DNA of 64,000 bases, taken from assembly GCF_000023325.1 (NCBI RefSeq), contig NC_012785.1:1984001-2048000 (forward strand), given 5' to 3'. The position numbers were made by a program, and so were the translations under genes. The number at the start of each line of letters is the position of its first letter. Position 1 is the stretch's first letter. The notes below the pieces were generated by a model. That model saw only the letters and a program-made list of their open reading frames with translations, had not been told where the DNA came from and ran no database searches. Below, one piece after another: positions 6,472 through 19,486 of the stretch. Source of the DNA: Kosmotoga olearia TBF 19.5.1. Lineage in GTDB: Bacteria > Thermotogota > Thermotogae > Petrotogales > Kosmotogaceae.

Positions 6472-7297
6472 GGATGGCAGAAAGGTAGCCCACTGTATGA
6501 TATTTATCTCCAGAAACGTCGCCGCTCGTGGCATGCTTTAATATTTTCAGTTCGTCGAAAAGTTTCAGAACCACTGCTATTGGTCCCAATCCACATGCAG
6601 TTATTCGGTTTTCCCGGGCGACCTGATAAATTCTGTCAATATCTTTTGTTAGCAAAGCTTTTATGAGAAGTTCGTCTTTTCTAAGTGTTGTTTCGTGATT
6701 GTCATAATGGTTCATGTCTGAAGACGCGATAACAAATATCCCTTCTTCTTTTTTTAGAATGCTTGAAATGGCTTCTACCAAAGTTCTTACGGCGTTTATG
6801 CTTTGGTCTGTCATTATTATTGGAACGATTGTGGGATCGTTATCAAAGATGTGCTGGATGAATGGAAGCTGCACTTCAATGGAGTGTTCGTAAAGGTGAG
6901 CGGAAGTGTCCGGTTTCAATTCACCCTGGGAATTCCTTACTAGTTCACCAACAAGGGATTCGTCTATTCGTAATGTTCCAAGAGGAGTATGCCAGCTGCC
7001 TTCAGGCCATATGGACAGCCGCGCGCCATAACCTGTATGATTCGGGCCTATAATGATTATCTTTCTGGGTTTACCAATTTTCGACAGTTCCAGATAACCG
7101 TGGGCCGCAACAGGACCACTGTACATATAACCTGCGTGTGGAGTAATGAGTCCAGCATTTTTGAGCGCAAAAGAAAAAACTGGTCCGGGCAATTCACCCG
7201 GACCTACGGGGTGATCGTAACATGCAGTTATCTGCTTTTTCAATTCTTCAGCATTGGAAGCGTAAAATCTACCGGCAAAGACCGGGTTCCTATCCAT
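6464..7297 (-). CDS. MEMO1-family protein (AmmeMemoRadiSam protein B type)
   Basis: 277 residues of the MEMO1 fold, related to extradiol dioxygenases. Conserved histidine-bearing blocks are visible: LITPHAGYMYSGPVAAHG, GPNHTGYGA and SSDMNHYDNH. Bacterial members often occur with an AMMECR1 domain and a radical-SAM protein, but neither is nearby here. The biochemical function is not established. The ATG shares one base with the stop of the giant secretin (TAATG), so translation is probably coupled and it sits last in the pilus operon. Its 3' end overlaps the kinase gene, so no terminator fits between them. Confidence 0.85.
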   Translation of the reverse strand: MDRNPVFAGRFYASNAEELKKQITACYDHPVGPGELPGPVFSFALKNAGLITPHAGYMYSGPVAAHGYLELSKIGKPRKIIIIGPNHTGYGARLSIWPEGSWHTPLGTLRIDESLVGELVRNSQGELKPDTSAHLYEHSIEVQLPFIQHIFDNDPTIVPIIMTDQSINAVRTLVEAISSILKKEEGIFVIASSDMNHYDNHETTLRKDELLIKALLTKDIDRIYQVARENRITACGLGPIAVVLKLFDELKILKHATSGDVSGDKYHTVGYLSAILS

Positions 7298-10200
7298 TAT
7301 GGGGCCACCACCTTCGCCGTTATGAATATGACCATTTCCCTCTGTTCTTTCGTTGTCTTTTCGGCCCTGAAAAGTTTCCCAATGAACGGTAAATCGCCAA
7401 AGAAAGGCAACTTGGTAACGCTCACGTTTTCTCTTTCGCTTACAAGGCCACCTATCGTCAGGGTGTTACCATCGGAGATAACAAGTTTTGTTTTTGCTTC
7501 TCTGGTTTTTTCACCGTAGAGATCGTTGGCGTAGGGTTGGGGTTCACTGACCTTTATGTAGAGATCGAGCAATATGGTGCCGTCGTCTTTTACCGTTGGT
7601 GTTATCGTCATTTCAACACCGGTTTCAAGATATTGGAGTTCTTCAACAATGTTTCCCGTTGCTGGATCGATCTTCTTGAGCAATATAGGTATGGTGTCAC
7701 CTATATGGATTCTTGCTTCTTCACCACTCAAAGCTACGATAGATGGATTGGAGATTATGCTACCATCAACATTGGATTTTTCAAGTTGTGCTGTTATTGT
7801 GGCAGAACCAGTTATGAGATTTTTGAGCAGCTTTGCGAAATCCACACTATCAAGAATACTGAAGCTGAGGTTCAGAGACCCAGAGCTGAAAAGGATATTT
7901 GGCTGTTCAAAACCCAAACTGGTACTGAACTGCTTGGTGATATCATCCAGCAACGATTTATCTACGATCCTTGTTTCGATCTTCACCTGTTTTTTCGGTG
8001 ATGTAAAGGTCCCACTTACCTGCTCCATTAATTCCAGAACTCTGGATTTGGGTAATCCCTTCACAACCAAAATCCCATTGACGGAATCTGCATACACCGT
8101 GCCCCCGTAGAATTCAATAAGAGTTTTGAGTTCTTCGATGTTGTGATAAACGCGGTAAATTTGTTCTCCTGTTGCATCATCAGTTGGAGCTTCAGAAACT
8201 ATCTCTTTTTTTCTCACTATGTATATATCATTAACCTTTTCTACTTTTACGGGTTCACATTCCTGAATAGCAGCAACAAAGGTATCCCAGGTCACACCTT
8301 CCAACGTCAATGTGAAGGTTTCATCTAATTCTTCCGGGACCATGAGGGAGATACCGAGGCTCTTAGCAATGCGTTTCATGACAGCAATAAGATTCGCATT
8401 TTCAGCGTAAACGTAGATTAGTCCGTCTTTAACCATGAAGTTGTCTTCTGGCGAAATCTCTACATCTTTTGATTGAATTTGTTTGATTAGTTCCTCAGCT
8501 TTTGCCAGAGCTTCTTGGTCTTTAGATTTAAGTACTATGACACCAAGGTTTTTGAATACTCTTGTTTCAACCTGTGGGAAAGTTGCTTCCATGAAAAGCT
8601 CCAGTTCTGTCGAGACATTCGTTACGTTATAAATGTAGCTTTGGTAATCTTTCTCTTCAGTTAGAGCACCTTCTATTATTCCTTTGATTTTGTCAAGAGC
8701 ATTTTTATTTCCAATCAGCAGCCACGCGTTTTCCAGCTCTATGATGTTTACACTAACGTCCATGCTATCCACAACGTTTTTCAGTTGTTCTGCCGTTGCC
8801 AACGATTTTTCTATCTTTGTGAACTCAGTTTTTTGATCTTTCACAAGGAAATTCAGTAGTTCTTTGGCACGTTCGAGTTGTTCTGAAAAACCAATTCCTA
8901 TGACTTTATCGCCGTAGGAGAAAAGAGATCTCAGTGAAATATCTGCTGCTTTCAAATACTCAGTGATTTGTTCCAGAGTCCAACCTGGGAGTCTTGGCAA
9001 CTCGGAGATAACTATGTTAGTTTCAGTTGCCGCGGATGTATTGTACGTTGTCGTCAATTCTTCTATTAACTTGTTAGCCCTCTCGATATCATTTTCTTTG
9101 CCAATGATAACGAGATTTTGCTCTGTTTCAAGAAGTTTGACCCTCAAGTCCAAACCGCTAAAAATCTCTTCAAGCTGCTGAAGTTGAATACCTGGCTTTT
9201 TAATTATCCGATAAGCGAGAGTACCTGTTTTTAGAGAGTAAAGACCGGAGAGAGTCTCTTTGAACTTCAGAATTTGTTCGGTTTTACCGCTTATAAGGAA
9301 GGTATTCTCAGAGACTTTGGTTATTCCTATATCCACCATAAGTGAGTCAGCAAGGGTATTCAAAAGCTCTTCTGAGATGTTTTCAGGTACTTCTACAAAC
9401 TCGTAGGAACGTTTGGTACTATCAGCGAGGTAATTTGTCAGCTGTTGGGCCTGTTCAACAGCAGAATCACTTCCAAAGATTAGATAACCATTATCAACGT
9501 CAAAAACATCACTTACTGCTATCCCTTTACTCAACAGATATTTTTTGAGTGTATCAGCATCGATACCAGGCAATTTCTGTAAAAGTTTGACGTTCCTCTG
9601 ACCCTCAGGTTTTTCAGGTACTGCTGTTTTTTCTATTATGTCTTGAATATACTCTATCTCGTTGAGATCACCAGCGATGAGAACCTGGTTGCCTATCGGT
9701 TGAATTTTCAGTTTTAGTTCGAGAGTTTTAGCTATTAAGCTGAGTTCATCCAACGAACTTCCGGGTGGCAGAGTGATTAGTTTATAGCTCAGTTCGTTGC
9801 TGACCACCGTCGTTTCAGTGGCTTGAGCTGAATCGACAACCTTTTTAATGAGTCTTTCGGCATCTGCAAGGTTTGTTGCATCACCGGTGACTATCATGAA
9901 ATCGCCAAGTTGGAGAATTCTTGCGGATATCTGTAATACTTCGAGGACCTTCTCTAATTGGTCTGGATCGATATTTTCAGGTAATTCTACGATAGAGTAT
10001 TCGAGCTCTTGGTGACCTGTTTCCGCGCTATCTACCTTGAGAGAATCCAAAAGTTCAATGGCTTTTGAAATATTTGAATCTGTTCCTATCAGAACCAGCG
10101 AGTTACCAATTTCAATGGCTTTTACGTCGAGACCAACGGAGGTTAACAACTCCCTCAATGTAGCGAGAGCTATCTGCCCCGGGCGTTCAAAAACCTTGTA

Positions 10201-13200
10201 GCTGTATTCAACAAGTTCTGCAGGTTTCTTTCCCAGTGCTGACAAGGTGGAGATGACGCCTTTGGCGTCCGTTATGGCGCTCTCTCCACCTACCAGCAGG
10301 GCCGCCGTACCTGCCGGTATCGTCTCAACATCTATTCCGATTTTTCTTACAATGGTCTGGATATCTGTTGTTGTGAAACCTTCGGGGATGTTTACCAGTT
10401 CGTATACCTTCCTGGTTTCTGTCGCCTCAGGTGTATCTTTCTCGAATGCTACCAGGACTTCTTCCGCCTTCGTTATCTCTTCTTCCGGTCCAATGAGTAC
10501 AAATTTACCGGAAACTTCTATTCCTTCTGCAGCTATTCCTACCTTTTTGAGTAATTCGTTCAGCTCATTCACCGTCAGTGTCGTTTCACGTTCTTCTATT
10601 TTGTAACTGAGCTTCACCATTTCTTCTGGTTTCGTGCTCAGTTTTGCGAGCGTCGCTATGACGTTCTGGGCTTTCTGTATCTCTGTTTTGCTTCCTACAA
10701 CGAGTACAGTGTTGGCAGCTCCTACGAGCTCTGTCTTTATCCCTATCTTTCGTGTTATCGTCTGTAGTTGTTCTATACTGAGTCCTTCCGGCAGATTCAC
10801 CAGAGTGTATGTCTTCTCTTCTACTTTCGTTGCTTCTTCTGTTATCTCCGGCTTGAGCAGTTCTATCATGTTTTTGGTTTCTTCTATTTCGCCGCTCGTG
10901 CCGATCACTATGAGTTTGTCGTCTGTTTTGAGTATCTGTGCGGCCACGTTCAGTGCGTTGAGTGCTTCTTTCACCGTGTTGAGGTCAAGACCTATCGGGG
11001 CTTCCAGAACGGCGTATTCTATCTTGCTTATCTGTGGCCGTTTGTTCAGCCCGTGCAGTCTGGTTATGACCTCGGTGGCTTTGGCGAGGCTTTCTGCTTC
11101 GCCAACCATTACCACAACGTCACCGGCTACTGTTATATCTACCTCTATCCCTATCTTTCTCAGTACCGTTTGCAGGCTCTCAAGGGTAAAGCCCTCAGGT
11201 ACGGAGATAGTCGTGTATTCTTTCTTCACCGGTGTCGCTTCGGCTGTTTCTTTCGGTGCAAGCGCTTTGATAGCTTCTTCTCCTTTTGCTATGTCTTCGT
11301 CCGTTCCCACGAGTACGACGTAACCGGAGATTTCCAGCGTCTTCAGGTTGAGCCCTATGGTTTCGAAGAAGGTACTCAATTCCTGAGGGGTCACACCGAT
11401 CGGCAGCGTGATTATTTTGTAGCTGTATTCAACCAGTTCCGCTGGCTTCTTTCCCAGTGCGGACAGGGTGGAGATGACGCCTTTGGCATCTGTTATGGCG
11501 CTTTCTTCACCGACAAGCAGAGCTGCCGTACCTGCCGGTATGGTCTCCACGTTTATCCCTATCTTCCTAACAATGGTCTGGATATCTGTTGTTGTAAAGC
11601 CTTCGGGAATGTTGATCAATGAATAAGTTGTTTTTGTACCTTCTGCTGATTCTTGAGATGAGAATTGTATTTGTTCCAGGAAGGATTTGGCTTTTTTAAG
11701 ATCTGCACGGGAACCAATTAAAACGAGTGAGTCTGGTAATTCATGTACGGTTAGATTCAGTCCGAGACCTTCGAATATCTGTTCAAGATTTGTGATATCT
11801 ATACCTGGCCTGGATACCAGGGCGTAAGAAAATTCTTCTTCTTTTATCTGGGATTGAAGTCCGTTTATAAATTCAACCATGGATTCAACATCTTCTCGGG
11901 AACCTACAACAATGATTCCGTTTTCTTTGATAAACAGGAAGGTTACCTGTAAGTCCAGGGAAGTTGCTGCTGTTCTAAGGAATTCCTGATTCATGGGCTC
12001 AGTTGTTTCTATGTATTTGTAAACATTGGTTTTAAGAGATGGAAGACCGCTTAGATGCTGAACTATCTCTTTGGCTTTTTGTATTTCCTCCGGATAGCCT
12101 ATTATAGCGAGTCCGTTGTTGAAGGAATAGAGTTTTACATTGATTGACATATCATTCAATAAGGCTGAGAGTTTATCTGTTTCTATGTTTACGTTTGTCA
12201 GAACCGCTATATCTTTTTTTAGAGGCAATACGTCAGTTGTAGCAGGTTCTGTATCTTCTGGTGTCAGTTCTGAGACGAGGCGTTGAATTGCGGCAACGTC
12301 TTCTGGATTTCCAAAAACGATTATTTTATGCTGGGTCTCAACGATCGAAACAGAGAATCCAAGAGTCTTGATCACATTTTCGAGTTCAGAATATGCAACT
12401 TTTTTATCGAGTGTTAAGAGCTTTCCTTCACCGTCGCTTTCGAGTTCTTTATACACCGGTATGAAGTCTTCAACATCTTTTTGAGTGCCTATAACGATTA
12501 CTTTTCCTGCTGCCTCTATGATATTCAAATTGTATGAGAAACTTGAGGCTATGGTTTTCACAGTTCCAAGGTCCAGATTAGCGAGTTTTGGTAATATTGC
12601 ATATCCTTTGTTAACGGTTTTTTCAACTTCTTCTCTTCGCTTTGAAAGAACAGACTCAATTACTTCCGTGGCCCTTTTTACTTCATTTGGAGTTCCAATT
12701 AGTAGCGGACCTGTTGGAGATTTCATGATTTCTACATTGATTCCAAGCTTTGTGATGATGGCCTGAATGGCTTCTATCGAATCTTCAGGAATGTCGACGA
12801 AACTGAATACTATAGTTGATGTTGTTGTACCTTCCGTTGTTTCTGCTGGAATTCCCATCTCAATTTGATTTATAAGATTTCTTGCTTGCAAGACGTTATC
12901 TCTTGTTCCTGCAAGGATATATTTTGAATTTACAGGGAATATTTCAACGGTAATGCCCATTCGAAGTAACAGATCGTTGAATTGCTCGATCCGTGGGAGT
13001 CTTTCAACGATTAGATAATACGGATTCTCTAGCTCTCGTAAGCGTTCTATCTCATTTTCAACAACCTTAACGGTGGTTTCATCCCCGATAACAAGGTATC
13101 CACCGGTGGTTGGAATTATTTTGATTCTTTTGTAAGCCTCTTCCCCAAGGTAACTTTCAAGGTAGGTATTGAATTTTTCGTCGTCCCAACCGGGGAGTGA

Positions 13201-15183
13201 CTTTATGAGTTTGGAGATCTTGCGTTCTTCGATCGGGGAAGTTTTCAATCCGAGATGTGATTCTATCTTGGGTGTCATTTGTTTAATCAGGTTTTGTAAA
13301 CTGGTGAGATCATTCTTGTTTCCACGTACTATGAGGATTTCTATTGAAGGAATGTAGGTGTAATCGATTTTTCCTGTGTATAAGGTTGATATCAAATCCT
13401 TTATACCGCTTTCATAAACGTTCTCAGGAATTTCTATAAAGTATTCTCCTGTTTCCGGGAAGAAAACTTTCTCATATTTTCCCAATTCTTGAAGAGCGCG
13501 TTCAAGAGCTTCCTCAGGGGCAGAGATAAATACGAGTCTTTCAGCTATTGCGTCTATAGTATACTGTTCTGGTTTCAATCCTTCAGTGGCGAAGAAATGT
13601 TCAAGGAAGTTTTTAACGGAATCGAAAGCGTCTGCAGTTTTTATCTCTATAAATCTGCGCGCTATTTTTCCGTGTGATGCTTCTGTGAATTGTGAGATCA
13701 AATATTCTGCAATATCGAGCTTATTTTTCTCTCCCTTAATGATGTAACCATTATTTTCGCCCAGTGATTCGATGATTACTCCAGTTAAATCCTCGATTTG
13801 CATGATGATTTCATTGTCTATGGGAGCGGTATCCCGCAGTATTCTGTAACCAATTGTCTGTGAGCGCAGGGTGATGTCTCGCAATATTTCATTGACTATA
13901 TCCGTCATAGCTTCCGGGAAGGTTAAGGTTATTTTTCCGAGAGATTCAAAGGTACGGTCAACTTGTAGTTGCTCTCCGGGAATATAATTACTGAGCAAAC
14001 TTTCGATAAGACTTGCAAGAGTGATTTTCTCAGTTCTATTGCGGTTTATAACGTCCTCGACGATCTTAAAGTTGTCAGGAAGTTTTACGGTTAAGATCTT
14101 CGGTTTCGATTGTTCGAGATCTTTCTGCAAAGATTTTTTATAACTGTCCAGGTATGAGATGATGATGTTTACATCTCTGGCGCTTCCTGACAGAATCAGT
14201 TTATTAAATTCGGGTAAGGAGTCTATCTTTACAGAGCCATCACAGAGAAAATTGTTGACTTCAGAGGCGATTTTGTAAAAGTAATCAAGAGTTTTTTCTC
14301 CTGATGGAAGCTTCAAAAGCTCCACGTTATATTCTTTTTTTATGTAGGATGAGGTTAGAAGGTTGGAAAGTAGGAGATGGGTTTCGAGATCTCCGAAAGC
14401 TAATAAAGTGGATTCGTTTGGAATATATTCCAGAAAAGCTTCCACCGGTAAAGCTTTTCTAATGGCTTCGAGCTGGTTTTGCCCATCTTCTCCAACCTTT
14501 ATGTCGACGCCGATGTACGTTTTCCAGAACCTGTTAACAACATCTTTGACCTCTTCAGGGGTTCCTATATAAAACGTTCCATCTGTGAGATAGGCATAGG
14601 CAATCTGACTGCCGAGAGAAATGAGGATGTTCCGCAAAATATCTTCGGGGTGTGAGGAGGTGAATCCTACGGTTACCGGGAGTTTTCCAACCTTCTCGGT
14701 GATAACGTGGGAGAGATTCAGAACCTCGTCACTGAAAAGGTAGGTCAATACCGTCTGGAGGTTCATGCTGTAGGTGCTGAAACGGTCAACTGATACCTCG
14801 ATTGCTGATCGCCAGAAACGAAGGATGAGCGTATTATTTTTCAACAATACCTCGGGTTCTTTATTTGCCGGGATCAGTAATGCAACGCTAAGGGACATTC
14901 TGTCCCCAAGATCTCTCGTCCAGAGCCCTTCGACCGGTCCGGCTCTTAATGGAAGGTTCATGTTTTTTCCACTAACGCCGTAAAGCGTCAACGAGTACAC
15001 GGTTTTTGATGGGTTGGATTGGATATTGTAATCTAATTCGTTCAAAGCAGAGCTGAAGGTCATGGTTATCGTGACCGAGCGATCATCCAGAGTAGGTACA
15101 AGAGACTTTAATTGATTTGCATGAATCAGGATTGAAAAGAAAATCAAAAAAAGAAACAATAAAAGCAACGAAGATTTCTTCAT
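7297..15183 (-). CDS. Giant secretin (PilQ/GspD family) with a stack of about 29 periplasmic modules
   Basis: Outer-membrane pore subunit of a type IV pilus or type II secretion machine, about 2628 residues, several times longer than ordinary secretins. A signal peptide (KKSSLLLLFLFLIFFSILI) is followed by an AMIN-like beta domain (about 30-130) and a first STN/N-domain region. Then comes a long run of about 29 alpha/beta modules of about 65-90 residues, each ending in a strand-turn such as LVLIGTDSNI. A second STN-like domain lies near 2215-2300, and the C-terminal secretin domain follows, with VDGSIISNPSIVALSGEEA, ETGVEMTITPTV and GGLVSERE through PFFGDLPFIGKLF. The start is taken as the ATG at 15183; the in-frame GTG at 15192 lies inside the SD GGGGTGATC. 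It is the penultimate gene of the pil block. Confidence 0.92.
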   Translation of the reverse strand: MKKSSLLLLFLFLIFFSILIHANQLKSLVPTLDDRSVTITMTFSSALNELDYNIQSNPSKTVYSLTLYGVSGKNMNLPLRAGPVEGLWTRDLGDRMSLSVALLIPANKEPEVLLKNNTLILRFWRSAIEVSVDRFSTYSMNLQTVLTYLFSDEVLNLSHVITEKVGKLPVTVGFTSSHPEDILRNILISLGSQIAYAYLTDGTFYIGTPEEVKDVVNRFWKTYIGVDIKVGEDGQNQLEAIRKALPVEAFLEYIPNESTLLAFGDLETHLLLSNLLTSSYIKKEYNVELLKLPSGEKTLDYFYKIASEVNNFLCDGSVKIDSLPEFNKLILSGSARDVNIIISYLDSYKKSLQKDLEQSKPKILTVKLPDNFKIVEDVINRNRTEKITLASLIESLLSNYIPGEQLQVDRTFESLGKITLTFPEAMTDIVNEILRDITLRSQTIGYRILRDTAPIDNEIIMQIEDLTGVIIESLGENNGYIIKGEKNKLDIAEYLISQFTEASHGKIARRFIEIKTADAFDSVKNFLEHFFATEGLKPEQYTIDAIAERLVFISAPEEALERALQELGKYEKVFFPETGEYFIEIPENVYESGIKDLISTLYTGKIDYTYIPSIEILIVRGNKNDLTSLQNLIKQMTPKIESHLGLKTSPIEERKISKLIKSLPGWDDEKFNTYLESYLGEEAYKRIKIIPTTGGYLVIGDETTVKVVENEIERLRELENPYYLIVERLPRIEQFNDLLLRMGITVEIFPVNSKYILAGTRDNVLQARNLINQIEMGIPAETTEGTTTSTIVFSFVDIPEDSIEAIQAIITKLGINVEIMKSPTGPLLIGTPNEVKRATEVIESVLSKRREEVEKTVNKGYAILPKLANLDLGTVKTIASSFSYNLNIIEAAGKVIVIGTQKDVEDFIPVYKELESDGEGKLLTLDKKVAYSELENVIKTLGFSVSIVETQHKIIVFGNPEDVAAIQRLVSELTPEDTEPATTDVLPLKKDIAVLTNVNIETDKLSALLNDMSINVKLYSFNNGLAIIGYPEEIQKAKEIVQHLSGLPSLKTNVYKYIETTEPMNQEFLRTAATSLDLQVTFLFIKENGIIVVGSREDVESMVEFINGLQSQIKEEEFSYALVSRPGIDITNLEQIFEGLGLNLTVHELPDSLVLIGSRADLKKAKSFLEQIQFSSQESAEGTKTTYSLINIPEGFTTTDIQTIVRKIGINVETIPAGTAALLVGEESAITDAKGVISTLSALGKKPAELVEYSYKIITLPIGVTPQELSTFFETIGLNLKTLEISGYVVLVGTDEDIAKGEEAIKALAPKETAEATPVKKEYTTISVPEGFTLESLQTVLRKIGIEVDITVAGDVVVMVGEAESLAKATEVITRLHGLNKRPQISKIEYAVLEAPIGLDLNTVKEALNALNVAAQILKTDDKLIVIGTSGEIEETKNMIELLKPEITEEATKVEEKTYTLVNLPEGLSIEQLQTITRKIGIKTELVGAANTVLVVGSKTEIQKAQNVIATLAKLSTKPEEMVKLSYKIEERETTLTVNELNELLKKVGIAAEGIEVSGKFVLIGPEEEITKAEEVLVAFEKDTPEATETRKVYELVNIPEGFTTTDIQTIVRKIGIDVETIPAGTAALLVGGESAITDAKGVISTLSALGKKPAELVEYSYKVFERPGQIALATLRELLTSVGLDVKAIEIGNSLVLIGTDSNISKAIELLDSLKVDSAETGHQELEYSIVELPENIDPDQLEKVLEVLQISARILQLGDFMIVTGDATNLADAERLIKKVVDSAQATETTVVSNELSYKLITLPPGSSLDELSLIAKTLELKLKIQPIGNQVLIAGDLNEIEYIQDIIEKTAVPEKPEGQRNVKLLQKLPGIDADTLKKYLLSKGIAVSDVFDVDNGYLIFGSDSAVEQAQQLTNYLADSTKRSYEFVEVPENISEELLNTLADSLMVDIGITKVSENTFLISGKTEQILKFKETLSGLYSLKTGTLAYRIIKKPGIQLQQLEEIFSGLDLRVKLLETEQNLVIIGKENDIERANKLIEELTTTYNTSAATETNIVISELPRLPGWTLEQITEYLKAADISLRSLFSYGDKVIGIGFSEQLERAKELLNFLVKDQKTEFTKIEKSLATAEQLKNVVDSMDVSVNIIELENAWLLIGNKNALDKIKGIIEGALTEEKDYQSYIYNVTNVSTELELFMEATFPQVETRVFKNLGVIVLKSKDQEALAKAEELIKQIQSKDVEISPEDNFMVKDGLIYVYAENANLIAVMKRIAKSLGISLMVPEELDETFTLTLEGVTWDTFVAAIQECEPVKVEKVNDIYIVRKKEIVSEAPTDDATGEQIYRVYHNIEELKTLIEFYGGTVYADSVNGILVVKGLPKSRVLELMEQVSGTFTSPKKQVKIETRIVDKSLLDDITKQFSTSLGFEQPNILFSSGSLNLSFSILDSVDFAKLLKNLITGSATITAQLEKSNVDGSIISNPSIVALSGEEARIHIGDTIPILLKKIDPATGNIVEELQYLETGVEMTITPTVKDDGTILLDLYIKVSEPQPYANDLYGEKTREAKTKLVISDGNTLTIGGLVSERENVSVTKLPFFGDLPFIGKLFRAEKTTKEQREMVIFITAKVVAP
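9976..11604 (-). repeat. Four tandem copies of a 135-136-residue two-module unit inside the secretin
   Basis: Within the secretin, units begin at residues of about 1197, 1333, 1469 and 1604 (counted from the GTG at 15192) and are 136, 136, 135 and about 135 residues long. Each opens with PEG(F/L) then LQT or IQT then RKIGI, carries one VG turn, a K-P linker, then a second module with an IG turn and an acidic/Thr linker. The first 63 residues of units 1 and 4 differ at only two positions, although the DNA differs by roughly 14% by eye, mostly at silent sites. Confidence 0.85.
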
Positions 15184-15240
15184 GTTGATCACCCCGTATA
15201 ATTGCTATTTTTTTATTTTATTTTTCCTTTATTAATTTTC

Positions 15241-15684
15241 TTAATTTTCTGCCTGGAAAAACTTCACGATGGCAAAGGTGTTGCTTCGAGTATCATTCAG
15301 GAGCACCGCAAATTCTGTAATCCCGTACACAATATATGGAGCAATGAAATCCCCAACTCTGACGGTTTTAAGTTGGTTGTTGACTTCAATAACAGCGTAG
15401 TTGACATCATTTAGTTTTATGTAACTCTTATAAGCCAGTGATGTGGCTTCCACACCAATCTCCAGAAGTGATTGGATGACCTCTTCCGGCTTTGCGAATA
15501 GTGGTTGAAAATAATTTTCTAACTTCAAATTTTTTTCGAATAATGAAAGATCAATTTCTTCTTGTTTGTTATAAACAACACTCTCTTCTGTTATTGCAAG
15601 GGGTTGTATAAACAGAAGAGATAGCAACAGAAAAATACCTATTAGACTAAAAAATATAGAAAAAATAGCAATTTTTTCAAGCAT
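15241..15684 (-). CDS. PilP/GspC-like pilus assembly protein
   Basis: 147 residues with an N-terminal membrane anchor (about residues 3-27), an extended linker, and a C-terminal small beta domain. That domain (VNYAVIEVNNQL, VRVGDFI, VYGITEFAVLL) resembles the homology region of GspC or PilP, which contacts secretin N-domains. Its place directly before the secretin gene fits the pilM-N-O-P-Q gene order. The start is the second in-frame ATG (15684), because the first ATG abuts the AAGGG SD. Family assignment rests on layout and weak similarity, so it is tentative. Between it and the secretin are 57 AT-rich bases. Confidence 0.6.
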   Translation of the reverse strand: MLEKIAIFSIFFSLIGIFLLLSLLFIQPLAITEESVVYNKQEEIDLSLFEKNLKLENYFQPLFAKPEEVIQSLLEIGVEATSLAYKSYIKLNDVNYAVIEVNNQLKTVRVGDFIAPYIVYGITEFAVLLNDTRSNTFAIVKFFQAEN

Positions 15685-15696
15685 AATATACATCCC

Positions 15697-16338
15697 TTAG
15701 AAAAGATCAGTAACATAGAGATCCAATGTCAATTCTACCACAACATTTGTCGGTAAGTCCGTTTTAGGAAGTATTGGGAACCCCAGATTAGACTTTATGG
15801 ATATTTTTTTCATGATAACTTTGGGATCATTAGTTAGCCTTTCCATTATTTTCAAGGTATCCTCTGCGCTACTCGCTATATAGATTCCTTCTAACGCTTT
15901 TCCCTTCGTATTGGTAGAAATGCCCAGTAATTTTGCCAGCTCTTCAAAATTACTTTTTGAAGATAGGAAAGCGACAGTTTCATTTGCTACCTTCGATAAT
16001 TTTTGAACCTGATAATAAGTTTGTTCCAGCTCTTCTATCTCGGTGGTAAGCCTTGAAACGTCTCTGAAGGCGTTAAACATGTAAAAACCCACGAAGAGAA
16101 GAAACGCAGTTATTGTGGTTAAAATTATCAAAATACCAGCGACTCTTGTAGGAATTCCTTTTCTGTGGAGAGGGGTAACTTTTCTTTTTATCCTGTTCTT
16201 GTACTTTTCAGAAACGAATAGCAATTCCCGATTTTGCCCGGATCCAAGGAGGCTTTCTCCCAGAAAGAAGGCGTCTTCGCTAAAATTTTCCATAAAACCT
16301 TTGTTTATTTCATTATCTCCGTTGTTAATCAATTTCAT
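15697..16338 (-). CDS. PilO-like pilus assembly protein
   Basis: About 213 residues. A cytoplasmic N-terminal stretch of about 65 residues with a basic end is followed by one membrane helix (GILIILTTITAFLLFVGFYM), a coiled coil (LTTEIEELEQTYYQVQKLSKV) and a C-terminal alpha/beta domain. This is the architecture of PilN/PilO proteins that form the inner-membrane alignment complex. No strong family signature is seen, and the call comes from topology and gene order. Three in-frame starts lie together (TTG 16344, GTG 16341, ATG 16338), all overlapping the end of the PilN-like gene. The cytoplasmic extension is longer than usual. Confidence 0.55.
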   Translation of the reverse strand: MKLINNGDNEINKGFMENFSEDAFFLGESLLGSGQNRELLFVSEKYKNRIKRKVTPLHRKGIPTRVAGILIILTTITAFLLFVGFYMFNAFRDVSRLTTEIEELEQTYYQVQKLSKVANETVAFLSSKSNFEELAKLLGISTNTKGKALEGIYIASSAEDTLKIMERLTNDPKVIMKKISIKSNLGFPILPKTDLPTNVVVELTLDLYVTDLF

Positions 16339-16897
16339 CACCAACTTTTAGTTCGTAAAGCTTTAGTGTGTAAAGATTGGAAAATTCCATCTCGCCTTTT
16401 AAATTTAACTGATATGGGGTAGAAGGTTTAAGCGCCGGTGAAGGTACAGTGGTTTTTGAGTCTCTATCGTAGATTAAGTAATAGTAAGCTACCCCTGTTC
16501 CACCCTCATAATCTAGCCTGGTCACAATTGATCTGATGGCGTTTTGGTCTTCAAGAAATGCTTCAAGGGTTTTAAAAAAAAGAATTTCTTTTTCTTTGCT
16601 TCGTATATGTTTTTTCAATTCAGAAACACGCCGGGCCAATTTCGCCTGTTCTACTACTAACTCATTTCGTTTTGTGCTTATTGCGCTGGCGTCAATTTTT
16701 GGGACCCCTGTTAGAATGATGCCTACACTGTCCAGCAGGTACCCTTTTATGTATGCAATCTGGTTCAATCGGCTTTCAAAACCTTTAGCAAGAATGAATT
16801 TTCCCATAAGTATTATTCCCAGTGATATTCCTATTACAACAAAGAAGGTGAAAAGGCTATAGACTCTCTTCTTTGAATGCAAGTTTACGTTTACCAA
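16325..16897 (-). CDS. PilN-like pilus assembly protein
   Basis: About 190 residues. A short basic cytoplasmic N-terminus (NVNLHSKKRVYS) is followed by one membrane helix (LFTFFVVIGISLGIILMG), a coiled coil and a C-terminal domain. The short N-terminal tail before the helix is how PilN binds PilM. The start is placed at TTG 16897 because GGGGGTGA lies five bases ahead, the same spacing as at the secretin and RseC-like genes; GTG 16906 sits inside that SD. It overlaps the PilM-like gene by 41 bases. Identification is by layout rather than motif. Confidence 0.55.
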   Translation of the reverse strand: MVNVNLHSKKRVYSLFTFFVVIGISLGIILMGKFILAKGFESRLNQIAYIKGYLLDSVGIILTGVPKIDASAISTKRNELVVEQAKLARRVSELKKHIRSKEKEILFFKTLEAFLEDQNAIRSIVTRLDYEGGTGVAYYYLIYDRDSKTTVPSPALKPSTPYQLNLKGEMEFSNLYTLKLYELKVGDEID

Positions 16898-17888
16898 GAA
16901 TCTCACCCCCTCTTACAAGCAATCCCGCAACGTTGTATGAAAACTGGGGCGAAGCGTCCATACGTAAGGGTAGAGCTAAAACATTTTTTTCATCACCAAG
17001 TATTCTCTTAAAGGTTTCAACATAGATCTTTGTTGAAAGATCACTTTGAGCTACTACAAAAACCGTATCAAAGTAAGGTTCATCGCTGATTGAGGTGTTG
17101 GGAGAGCTGGAGAATGTATTTGATATGTACATCCTTAACTGGTAACCAATAGTCTGAGAAAGATAGTTGGAGGCTTCATCAACAAGGTCCGTATCGACAG
17201 CTTCTTGACAGGTCAAAAAATTTTTTAAGAAATCAAATTTACTTTCATCTGGCTTGGTTAGGTGGTCTATGATAGCATTAAAACCTTCACCTATGTAGTT
17301 GATTCCAATTATTTCGGAGTCTTTGATAATGTACAAAATAGAGTAGTCCAGATCAACAGAAAAGAGTATTCTGGAACCAGCAAAAATTTCTCGAGGTGGA
17401 AGCTTCAAAATCGGGAGAGGATTGATATCCACAATATCAGGTTCGGGGAAACCAACTTCTTTAATCTTTTCAAGAAAATTTTTTAAAAATCTGTCCCTTG
17501 TCACAGCAAAAATTGGTATAACAGAGTTCTTAATTGCTTTTAAGCTGTTTAAAGGGCTTGGAATGACTTCAGCTGGCGGAAGAGAGAACTGAGTTGCTAT
17601 CTTGAAATTGGCCACGTTCATGAGGCTCTTCTCGTTTTTTACCTTCGGAACCTCAACATGTTGAAAAACAACGTTTGATGGGTGGATGGCTGTGGTGATA
17701 ACTTCATCTACATCTAGGACGTTGTATTCGAAATAGCGTTCTGCAGCCTTCTTTAAAGCGTTCTCTCCATATTCGAGGACACTAAAGACCGGTATTATGT
17801 ATTTTTTCTTGACGAGTACTCTCGAAATCTCAGCAAGATCTTCCCAGAAATTTATGGCAGTTACGAACTTTTCGAACAACCCTTTCAC
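16857..17888 (-). CDS. PilM-like actin-fold pilus assembly protein (divergent)
   Basis: About 343 residues, soluble, with no membrane helix. The segment FSVDLDYSILYIIKDSEIIGINYIGEG resembles the second phosphate-binding half of the actin fold, and PEPDIVDINPLPIL resembles the region before it in PilM. The usual N-terminal phosphate-binding loop is not clear, so ATP binding is uncertain. In type IV pili, PilM is the cytoplasmic anchor for PilN. The start is GTG 17888 or TTG 17879; the latter has better spacing from AGGAGTGA. It lies between the pseudopilin and PilN-like genes. Confidence 0.55.
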   Translation of the reverse strand: MKGLFEKFVTAINFWEDLAEISRVLVKKKYIIPVFSVLEYGENALKKAAERYFEYNVLDVDEVITTAIHPSNVVFQHVEVPKVKNEKSLMNVANFKIATQFSLPPAEVIPSPLNSLKAIKNSVIPIFAVTRDRFLKNFLEKIKEVGFPEPDIVDINPLPILKLPPREIFAGSRILFSVDLDYSILYIIKDSEIIGINYIGEGFNAIIDHLTKPDESKFDFLKNFLTCQEAVDTDLVDEASNYLSQTIGYQLRMYISNTFSSSPNTSISDEPYFDTVFVVAQSDLSTKIYVETFKRILGDEKNVLALPLRMDASPQFSYNVAGLLVRGGEILGKRKLAFKEESL

Positions 17889-17893
17889 TCCTA

Positions 17894-18274
17894 TTAATAA
17901 ACTACTCTACCGGTTACTGGCATGATAACCAGCGAAGAACCATCTTCAAATGAAAAAGTAGTGGAACCTTTCTCTATAAAGAAAGAACCATCATCTTCAA
18001 ATCCAAAGATACAATCTTGAGAAGCTGTACCGGGAAAATCTTCAAATTTTCCTCCGGTAGATACTATAAATATCCCTGTTGTATGGTTGTAAAAGATTTT
18101 TCTTCGCTTTGAACTCTGTATTGCTTCCTGCTTTACATCTTCCAGAAAGATATCAAATTGTATTTTCGAAAGTTTTATATTATAACTCCCAAAGAAATTT
18201 ATAATCGGGAAAGAGATTAAGAACATTCCCAATGAGATTAAAAGAATATACAGTACTGTTTCCGTGAGATTCAT
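17894..18274 (-). CDS. GspH/FimT-like pseudopilin lacking a leader peptide
   Basis: 126 residues. An N-terminal hydrophobic helix (TVLYILLISLGMFLISFPII) has a glutamate at position 5, as in mature pilins, followed by a beta-rich globular domain ending SSLVIMPVTGRVVY, which resembles GspH/FimT pseudopilins. There is no basic leader or Gly-cleavage site ahead of the helix, and an in-frame TAA lies three codons upstream of the ATG, so no longer form is possible. The GGGAGG SD is 13 bases from the ATG, longer than usual. It follows the platform gene by nine bases. Confidence 0.6.
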   Translation of the reverse strand: MNLTETVLYILLISLGMFLISFPIINFFGSYNIKLSKIQFDIFLEDVKQEAIQSSKRRKIFYNHTTGIFIVSTGGKFEDFPGTASQDCIFGFEDDGSFFIEKGSTTFSFEDGSSLVIMPVTGRVVY

Positions 18275-18283
18275 GGCTATAAG

Positions 18284-19486
18284 TTATCCTCCCATTGCTT
18301 GTTCCATCGAGAAAATTGTGTTGTACATTGTGTAAGCAAGGAAGCCAATAAATCCACCGATAAACATGATCATAATTGGTTCAACCAAGGAAACGAGTTT
18401 CTTGAGAGAGGTAGTTACCTGCGCATGGTAAAAATCCGCTACTTTGAACATAACTTCATCTAATTTACCTGTTTCCTCACCTGTTGAAACCATGCTTATA
18501 ACGATGGAAGGGAATATCTTCTGCTTTTCTAGCGAAACGTGTATAGGTTCCCCGGCTCTGATCATATCTACAGCTAATGAAATTCCGTTCATTATTTTGG
18601 TGCTTTCCGAAACCTCGGCGGCGAGTTCAAGGGATGTTGGAAGATCCACACCACTTGCCACCAGAACCGCTAGAGTACGTGTGAAACGCTCAAGGGCTGT
18701 TGTTTCTCGTAACTTTCTTACAGGTGGAATGATAGATCCAAAAAAATTTTTTACGATCAGACCGTATTTTGTCATCATGAAGATTTTGGCTCCTATAAAG
18801 AACATTACCACTGCAATGGCAACCACTACTCCATGATTTGTCAGCAGCGAATTCATCCACAGGAGGAATCCCATAACTCCGCCAGGTTCAAATCCAGTAC
18901 CAAAGGCACTCATTAGATTTGGTAGTATGAAGAAGGAAATAACTCCAACGATACCAACGGCAAAAGCCATCATGAACAATGGATAAGACATTGCTGATTT
19001 TACCTGGTTTTGAAGGTCAACCATTCCTTCGTAGAATTCGGCAACCCTTTGTAAGGCCTCATCGAGTACGCCGCCAGTTTCGCCAGCTCTGACAAGATTC
19101 ACAAAGAGTTCATCAAAGACGCGTGTTTTTTCAAGGGCATCGCTGAATCCTTCACCTGATTCAATTAAAAGAACGACTTCAACCAAAATTTTTCTGAATC
19201 TACGAGAAAACATAGTTTGTTTTGAAAGTACCTGTAGTGCGTCTCTAATCCTAACTCCTGACGATACCATCGTTGCCAGCTGTCTTGAAAAGAGGCTAAG
19301 TTCTTTAGGTTGTATAGGGAACAATGACCTTTTTCTTTTCCGGGTCTTTGAAATTGGCTTGATGGATGTAACCACGAATCCCTGGCTATTCAATAGTTGC
19401 AACGCTTCAAGTTGGGAAGCTGCGCTAATTTTTCCTCTTTCTGTTTTTCCATCTTTGGTGATTATTTCGTACCTATATTCCGGCAT
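18284..19486 (-). CDS. pilC: Type IV pilus/type II secretion inner-membrane platform protein (PilC/GspF)
   Basis: 400 residues with two T2SSF domains. The N-terminal segment (PEYRYEIITKDGKTERGKI) is typical of GspF/PilC. The first domain (FSRQLATMVSSGV, then ESGEGFSDAL and RAGETGGVLDEAL) is followed by two membrane helices. The second domain repeats the pattern (FTRTLAVLVASGVDLP, then VSTGEETGKLDEVM), with a final membrane helix (VEPIMIMFIGGFIGFLAY). The protein couples an assembly ATPase to pilin polymerisation; no PilB/PilT ATPase is in the window. The ATG sits two bases after the ispF stop, with its SD inside ispF. Confidence 0.93.
   Translation of the reverse strand: MPEYRYEIITKDGKTERGKISAASQLEALQLLNSQGFVVTSIKPISKTRKRKRSLFPIQPKELSLFSRQLATMVSSGVRIRDALQVLSKQTMFSRRFRKILVEVVLLIESGEGFSDALEKTRVFDELFVNLVRAGETGGVLDEALQRVAEFYEGMVDLQNQVKSAMSYPLFMMAFAVGIVGVISFFILPNLMSAFGTGFEPGGVMGFLLWMNSLLTNHGVVVAIAVVMFFIGAKIFMMTKYGLIVKNFFGSIIPPVRKLRETTALERFTRTLAVLVASGVDLPTSLELAAEVSESTKIMNGISLAVDMIRAGEPIHVSLEKQKIFPSIVISMVSTGEETGKLDEVMFKVADFYHAQVTTSLKKLVSLVEPIMIMFIGGFIGFLAYTMYNTIFSMEQAMGG

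Follow-up and report, generated by a model that had tools for sequence, protein, structure and literature searches.

A giant PilQ-type secretin with about 30 predicted N-domain modules at the pilus locus of Kosmotoga olearia

Results

A giant secretin gene at the end of a pilus operon

We analyzed 64,000 nucleotides (positions 1984001-2048000, hereafter the window) of the genome of Kosmotoga olearia TBF 19.5.1, which is a single contig of 2,302,126 bases. The window contains an unusually long secretin gene, a single open frame at 7297-15192 on the minus strand with 2,631 codons and a GTG start. An in-frame ATG lies 3 codons inside the GTG, and starting there would give a protein of 2,628 amino acids; the stop is at 7297 in either case. 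A search of the genome found no other secretin match. A reading of the DNA sequence by itself (the sequence-only reading) had described this 7.9 kb gene as undecayed, and indeed the frame is uninterrupted in K. olearia and in at least five relatives whose genes could be read at full length.

The secretin is the last gene of a conserved seven-gene operon, behind genes for a PilC platform protein, a pilin-like protein, and four PilM/N/O/P-like proteins (Table 1). The top NCBIfam match of the platform protein is PilC, although the score is under the curated cut-off. Because the PilM/N/O/P-like proteins have no significant Pfam matches, their names rest on gene order, size, and conservation. The PilO-like protein is the sole operon partner of the secretin with a clear change in length: it has 200-215 amino acids in the Kosmotogaceae versus about 130-160 in most other families. 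A Memo gene lies downstream of the secretin in K. olearia. PilC and Memo flank the secretin at most of the Thermotogota loci that we examined; at some loci one of these flanks was found, and two short contigs showed neither. By synteny, the K. olearia secretin corresponds to TM0088 of Thermotoga, and in naturally competent Thermotoga, TM0088 is listed as pilQ and TM0094 as pilC (PMC5637354).

Elsewhere, the genome encodes two T2SSE proteins, so that ATPases for both extension and retraction are represented; of these, PilT is over its cut-off. The second T2SSE protein is of the PilB/GspE type: it is below both equivalog cut-offs and is scored alike by the GspE and PilB models. Neither family model is passed by the secretin itself, which scores 121.9 bits with the PilQ model (TIGR02515, cut-off 284.35) and 132.1 bits with the GspD model (TIGR02517, cut-off 351.35). 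The Thermotoga orthologue also fails TIGR02515 (182.6 bits), yet PilQ is its best-scoring model. Our conclusion is that the K. olearia protein is a PilQ-type secretin, as distinct from a model-defined PilQ, of a type IV pilus/DNA-uptake machine.

Table 1. Features of the secretin gene and its operon. Positions are in the 64,000-nt window.
Feature	Position	Strand	Residues or size	Basis
Giant PilQ-type secretin gene	7297..15183	-		Open frame; Pfam Secretin and Secretin_N; sole secretin of the genome
Putative signal peptide MKKSSLLLLFLFLIFFSILIHA	15118..15183	-		By eye from sequence
AMIN-like beta-sandwich	14803..15114	-	~27-130	All-beta in AlphaFold2 model; Foldseek match
N-terminal STN/N0-like domain	14548..14790	-	~135-215	Helix/strand order in model
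Six irregular beta-alpha-beta-beta-alpha modules	13252..14529	-	~222-647	Model; weak module-HMM matches
23 regular N-domain modules, ~67 aa each	8638..13239	-	652-2185	Module HMM, shuffle control, Secretin_N, hhalign
DNA repeat copy 1	11417..11613	-	1194-1258	86.8% nucleotide identity to copy 2
DNA repeat copy 2	10196..10392	-	1601-1665	86.8% nucleotide identity to copy 1
Last array module	8464..8637	-	~2183-2243	Beta-alpha-beta-beta-alpha in C-terminal model
Second N0/STN-like domain, PilQ-type	8197..8445	-	~2250-2332	Strand/helix order in model
N1 domain adjoining pore	7993..8175	-	~2340-2400	Beta-alpha-beta-beta-alpha in model
Secretin pore domain	7306..7776	-	2473-2629	Pfam Secretin; Foldseek GspD/PilQ
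PilP-position gene	15241..15693	-	150 aa	Position; uniform length among orthologous operons; no Pfam match
PilO-like gene	15697..16344	-	215 aa	Position, size; no significant Pfam match
PilN-like gene	16325..16906	-	193 aa	Position, size; no Pfam match
PilM-like gene	16857..17888	-	343 aa	Position, size, conservation across families; no Pfam match
Pilin-like protein	17894..18274	-		Weak ComGD match, below cut-off
PilC/GspF platform protein	18284..19486	-		T2SSF, E 3.5e-55

Most of the protein is an array of predicted N-domains

Read from its N-terminus, the protein begins with a putative signal peptide, an AMIN-like domain, and an N0-like domain; the array of about 30 N-domain modules comes next, followed by another N0-like domain, N1, and the pore. 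The pore domain is clear (PF00263, 137.6 bits versus a cut-off of 27.5, E 4e-40), and Secretin_N is also over its Pfam cut-off (E 1.5e-15). An AMIN-like part near the N-terminus had been proposed before. Pfam's AMIN family does not match the K. olearia secretin, but the modeled beta-sandwich matches the AMIN-type B2 domain of Neisseria PilQ (4aqz; Foldseek probability 1.00, rmsd 2.9 over 113 columns). Neither of the two N0/STN-like domains has a Pfam match in the K. olearia protein itself. In the Thermotoga orthologue, the N-terminal STN reaches 27.1 bits (cut-off 28.4), and the second STN has a weak match at the corresponding place (E 0.036). Since N0, N1, and the pore follow each other at the C-terminal end, the arrangement near the pore is that of an ordinary PilQ, with the array on its periplasmic side.

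To delimit the modules, we used an HMM that was seeded by eye in the middle of the array and iterated on the K. olearia protein and its orthologues. With this HMM, 23 modules in a row are significant, and the lowest-scoring of them has 29 bits; over 200 shuffles of this stretch, the best domain had 6.8 bits. Of the six irregular modules that come before, five are clear in the N-terminal structural model and the sixth (residues 222-285) was read from the sequence; the irregular stretch has a weak match to Secretin_N (23.2 bits versus a cut-off of 28.2). With the one module after the regular ones, the array has about 30 modules (6+23+1), or 31 if N1 is counted. The sequence-only reading had about 29 modules before the pore, so the HMM, the models, and our own reading of the sequence agree with it closely.

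The same reading took the modules for secretin N-domains, and both profile comparison and fold matches of the predicted structure favor this. Five of the 23 regular modules individually match Secretin_N, which is more than match any other Pfam family. When the profile of the 23 modules was aligned to a Secretin_N profile that we built from secretins outside the Thermotogota, hhalign gave a probability of 93.6% (E 2.2e-7), while the best of 60 column-shuffled profiles reached 0.4%. A plain search of PDB sequences with the module profile (hmmsearch) gave chance matches only and no secretin, so the resemblance in sequence is remote. We also obtained AlphaFold2 models for residues 24-860 (from a 17-sequence alignment; mean pLDDT 75.9) and residues 1794-2631 (28 sequences; 72.5). 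In both models, the order beta-alpha-beta-beta-alpha recurs along the chain. The model of residues 24-860 does not include the pore, and all 15 of its Foldseek matches in the PDB with E < 0.001 are secretins: PilQ of Neisseria and of Myxococcus, the Deinococcus secretin, PulD, GspD, and InvG. The model of residues 1794-2631 matches GspD and PilQ, with E down to 1e-19. The pTM values are low (0.40 and 0.31, respectively), so the models do not fix the geometry from module to module, and the linkers between modules have low model confidence, which is compatible with flexibility. Sequence profiles and predicted structures together support a secretin N-domain fold for the modules. In the orthologues, too, the region at the same syntenic place is homologous to the secretin stack.

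The length of the secretin varies greatly across the Thermotogota

A PF00263 match turned up in 96 of the 103 Thermotogota genomes. In many of them, there is a second, short secretin (frames of ~370-430 amino acids); K. olearia and the Mesotoga-type genomes that we searched have one match each. The syntenic secretin has 657-910 amino acids in the Petrotogaceae, 938-1,105 in Mesoaciditogaceae-like genomes, and about 995-1,620 in most other families (~1,285 in Thermotoga). The K. olearia secretin has 2,631 amino acids; four Mesotoga-type genomes, M. prima among them, encode secretins of 3,888-3,914 amino acids, and another encodes one of 4,560. A comparison of module number across orthologues had been proposed as a check on the sequence-only reading. 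By arithmetic from secretin length and domain borders, the array at this one locus has about 1 module in the Petrotogaceae, 10 in Thermotoga, 30 in K. olearia, 49 in M. prima, and 59 in the longest Mesotoga-type secretin. Over the operons that we compared, the secretin ranges from 938 to 4,560 amino acids and the remaining proteins are nearly constant in length.

If we compare the modules of K. olearia and Mesotoga by their best matches to each other, then the seven pore-proximal modules largely keep their corresponding order. In Mesotoga, a block that matches modules 2-5 of K. olearia is repeated with a period of four to five; the repeated unit of K. olearia is a central pair of modules. Because the repeated blocks differ, both lineages lengthened the array, and at different places. 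These comparisons show expansion by duplication, independent in Kosmotoga and Mesotoga. The two repeat copies in Table 1 are the sole strong DNA repeat remaining in the K. olearia gene.

In Mesotoga, the module number is held rather than drifting, as the secretins of two species align without a single gap column over 3,888 residues and dN/dS between them is low (0.11 for the array, 0.02 for the end with N0, N1, and the pore). The module number is constant in four Mesotoga species.

The orthologue in K. pacifica (L072:10480-11755) is interrupted: about 1 kb of the array is inverted, and a frame change follows. No inverted repeats flank this inversion that are long enough to explain a programmed switch. 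Either the lesion is real or a repetitive gene was misassembled. The contigs of two relatives of K. pacifica also end within the module array.

Secretin length and the toga spacer

In Thermotoga, Omp-alpha (an SLH domain, a coiled coil, and a C-terminal anchor) holds toga and inner membrane about 50 nm apart, and the toga balloons at the poles (PMC3387000). Using homologues of Omp-alpha from 18 genomes in 15 genera, we found that spacer length rises with secretin length (Spearman 0.83 across genomes; 0.77, p 0.0008, across genera). The relationship also appears in contrasts computed on a tree built from the pore region of the secretin (r=0.66, p=0.004). Across genera, the correlation is 0.62 (p 0.03) without the Kosmotogaceae and 0.50 (p 0.12, not significant) if the Petrotogaceae are left out as well. 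The trend is real, but it leans on the extreme families. Also, a regression of log spacer length on log secretin length has a slope of 0.31 rather than 1. The two Omp-alpha proteins of K. olearia have 414 and 466 amino acids, as compared with about 522 predicted by the regression (z -1.9), and would form rods of ~49 nm on average.

Some Mesotoga-type genomes have SLH proteins of 688-700 amino acids (L080 and L083) that do not have a coiled-coil composition; we dropped these as candidates for Omp-alpha, and the correlation held. Mesotoga-type genomes, M. prima included, also have two SLH proteins of the size of Omp-alpha (562-587 amino acids), at two loci each (L079, L081, L082, and G024:C1:1099721-1099855), although a single ompA was reported for M. 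prima (PMC3387000); the second M. prima protein was judged by its frame length only. We found no member of the TamB family in the Thermotogota that could serve as a second ruler of the envelope.

How long would these secretins be if every module were stacked? In solved secretins, each ring adds a rise of 2.5-3 nm, and we assumed this value throughout. For Thermotoga, about 13 rings plus the pore would then measure 41-48 nm, which is close to the reported toga spacing of ~50 nm (PMC3387000). A fully stacked tube would measure ~91-107 nm in K. olearia and 138-193 nm in Mesotoga, or about twice or more the length of their spacer rods. The idea that a long channel suits the wide periplasm under the toga, which was part of the sequence-only reading, therefore fares in two ways: the correlation with the toga spacer supports it indirectly, but a one-to-one match to the width of the side wall is unsupported, because the spacer of K. 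olearia is ordinary in length. Either the giant secretins are placed where the toga lies farther out, such as the poles, or not all of the modules stack end to end.

Discussion

A proposed lengthened pilus channel

What is the array for? We favor the view, with a probability of roughly 0.6, that this is a lengthened, ring-stacked PilQ-type channel of a type IV pilus/DNA-uptake machine and that its module number is fitted to the distance under the toga. If the subunits assemble as in other secretins, then N1 and most of the array modules should form coaxial rings. These rings would make a much lengthened channel that starts at the outer membrane and reaches towards the PilMNOP platform, and the tube would guide the pilus across the gap under the toga. 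Evolution could then adjust the number of modules to the distance that the pilus must cross, and selection on secretin length would amount to selection on envelope width. A bolder version, which we offer tentatively and would not bet on, is that the array has evolved as a gauge of length. It would form a coaxial tube that measures some 100-190 nm, with about 30 N-rings in Kosmotoga and 50-60 in Mesotoga, and envelope width would set the module number, along with the coiled-coil spacer. This would be by far the longest secretin channel known.

Some of our results would fit a flexible tether instead. Rings might be limited to the vicinity of the pore and maybe also to the N-terminus. The rest of the modules would then be beads on a chain by which the pore stays linked to the inner-membrane platform even as the loose toga balloons outward. 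Low confidence in the linkers, low pTM, a predicted stack that is about twice the spacer rod in both K. olearia and Mesotoga, and the ballooning of the toga at the poles (PMC3387000) are all as this explanation would have it. On the other hand, the array retains over its whole length a fold that makes rings in solved secretins, the array is under purifying selection, and independent domains on a string would not guide a pilus. We consider the tether unlikely, but it is the most serious of the rivals. It is less probable still that the modules merely duplicate readily in a repetitive gene and that the extras are tolerated, with no selection on length. The gene is repetitive, one duplication or gene conversion looks recent (87% nucleotide identity), and the K. 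pacifica copy is rearranged. Against this are the constant module number in four Mesotoga species with an array dN/dS of 0.11, the intact arrays of both Kosmotoga and Mesotoga, the correlation of secretin length with the spacer, and the fact that a single strong DNA repeat is left in the gene.

The machine could also be something other than a pilus, but we would be surprised if so. A type II secretin that exports enzymes to the toga surface might account for the slightly higher score with GspD than with PilQ (132 versus 122 bits, both below cut-off) and for an ATPase that the GspE and PilB models score alike. But the PilM/N/O/P-like gene order, a PilT retraction ATPase over its cut-off, and an AMIN-like N-terminus that matches the B2 domain of PilQ all speak against such a system. 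Also, the Thermotoga orthologue scores best with the PilQ model, and TM0088 is listed as pilQ in naturally competent Thermotoga (PMC5637354). Finally, the modules have weak matches to KH families in Pfam, which might bring to mind an array that binds nucleic acid or cell wall and, for example, holds incoming DNA. We give this hardly any credence: Secretin_N is the commonest family match, the structure matches are to secretins, and the module alignment conserves neither a GxxG loop nor a basic signature, just a structural glycine. The KH matches reflect a shared fold.

The Thermotogota offer a natural experiment: at one locus, the same pilus secretin has anywhere from about 1 to about 59 array modules while its inner-membrane partners stay nearly constant in size. 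The comparison bears on how envelope-spanning machines adapt to the width of the envelope and on the way in which a pilus gets across a loose toga. Because the extreme forms are in two culturable and sequenced genera, they could be imaged directly.

Comparison with known secretins

The closest known parallel is PilQ of Thermus thermophilus. This too is a type IV pilus/DNA-uptake secretin; its beta-alpha-beta-beta-alpha N-rings form a lengthened stack, and the host has a wide periplasm, most of which is spanned by the six rings (PMC5745081). The wide periplasm of Thermus is put at ~70 nm (PMC13039148). This PilQ has been described as exceptionally long and as one of the largest secretion systems characterized. 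Yet it has six rings and 757 amino acids, as opposed to about 30 array modules and 2,631 amino acids in K. olearia, and the available part of the report (PMC5745081) does not mention an AMIN domain, while K. olearia has an AMIN-like fold.

The Thermotoga TM0088 family shares its syntenic place, operon, and domain order with the K. olearia secretin, but with 1,285 amino acids and about 10 array modules, or a third as many. The AMIN-like and N0-like domains, N1, the pore, and the PilM/N/O/P-like genes of K. olearia have their parallels in the PilQ of Neisseria, Myxococcus, and Pseudomonas (AMIN-type domain, N0, N1, pore; PilM/N/O/P operon), which has one N1 and no array. The type II secretins GspD and PulD have N0, repeated N-domains, and the pore; they differ in having three N-domains after N0 and no AMIN, and the K. 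olearia protein is below the cut-off for the GspD family. We found no description of the giant secretins of Kosmotoga or Mesotoga in the open-access papers that we searched. The K. olearia protein is an extreme and newly seen form of PilQ-type secretin.

Our survey of secretins outside the Thermotogota was small, and it turned up a secretin from a metagenome-assembled genome of the Bacillota (L165:2-5170) with a long run of N-domains of its own. This protein has 14 Secretin_N matches in at least 1,723 amino acids (the contig ends there). Unlike those of K. olearia, its modules are classical Secretin_N domains with long loops. The other members of its order that we searched have short secretins only. 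So long arrays of N-domains arose in another phylum as well.
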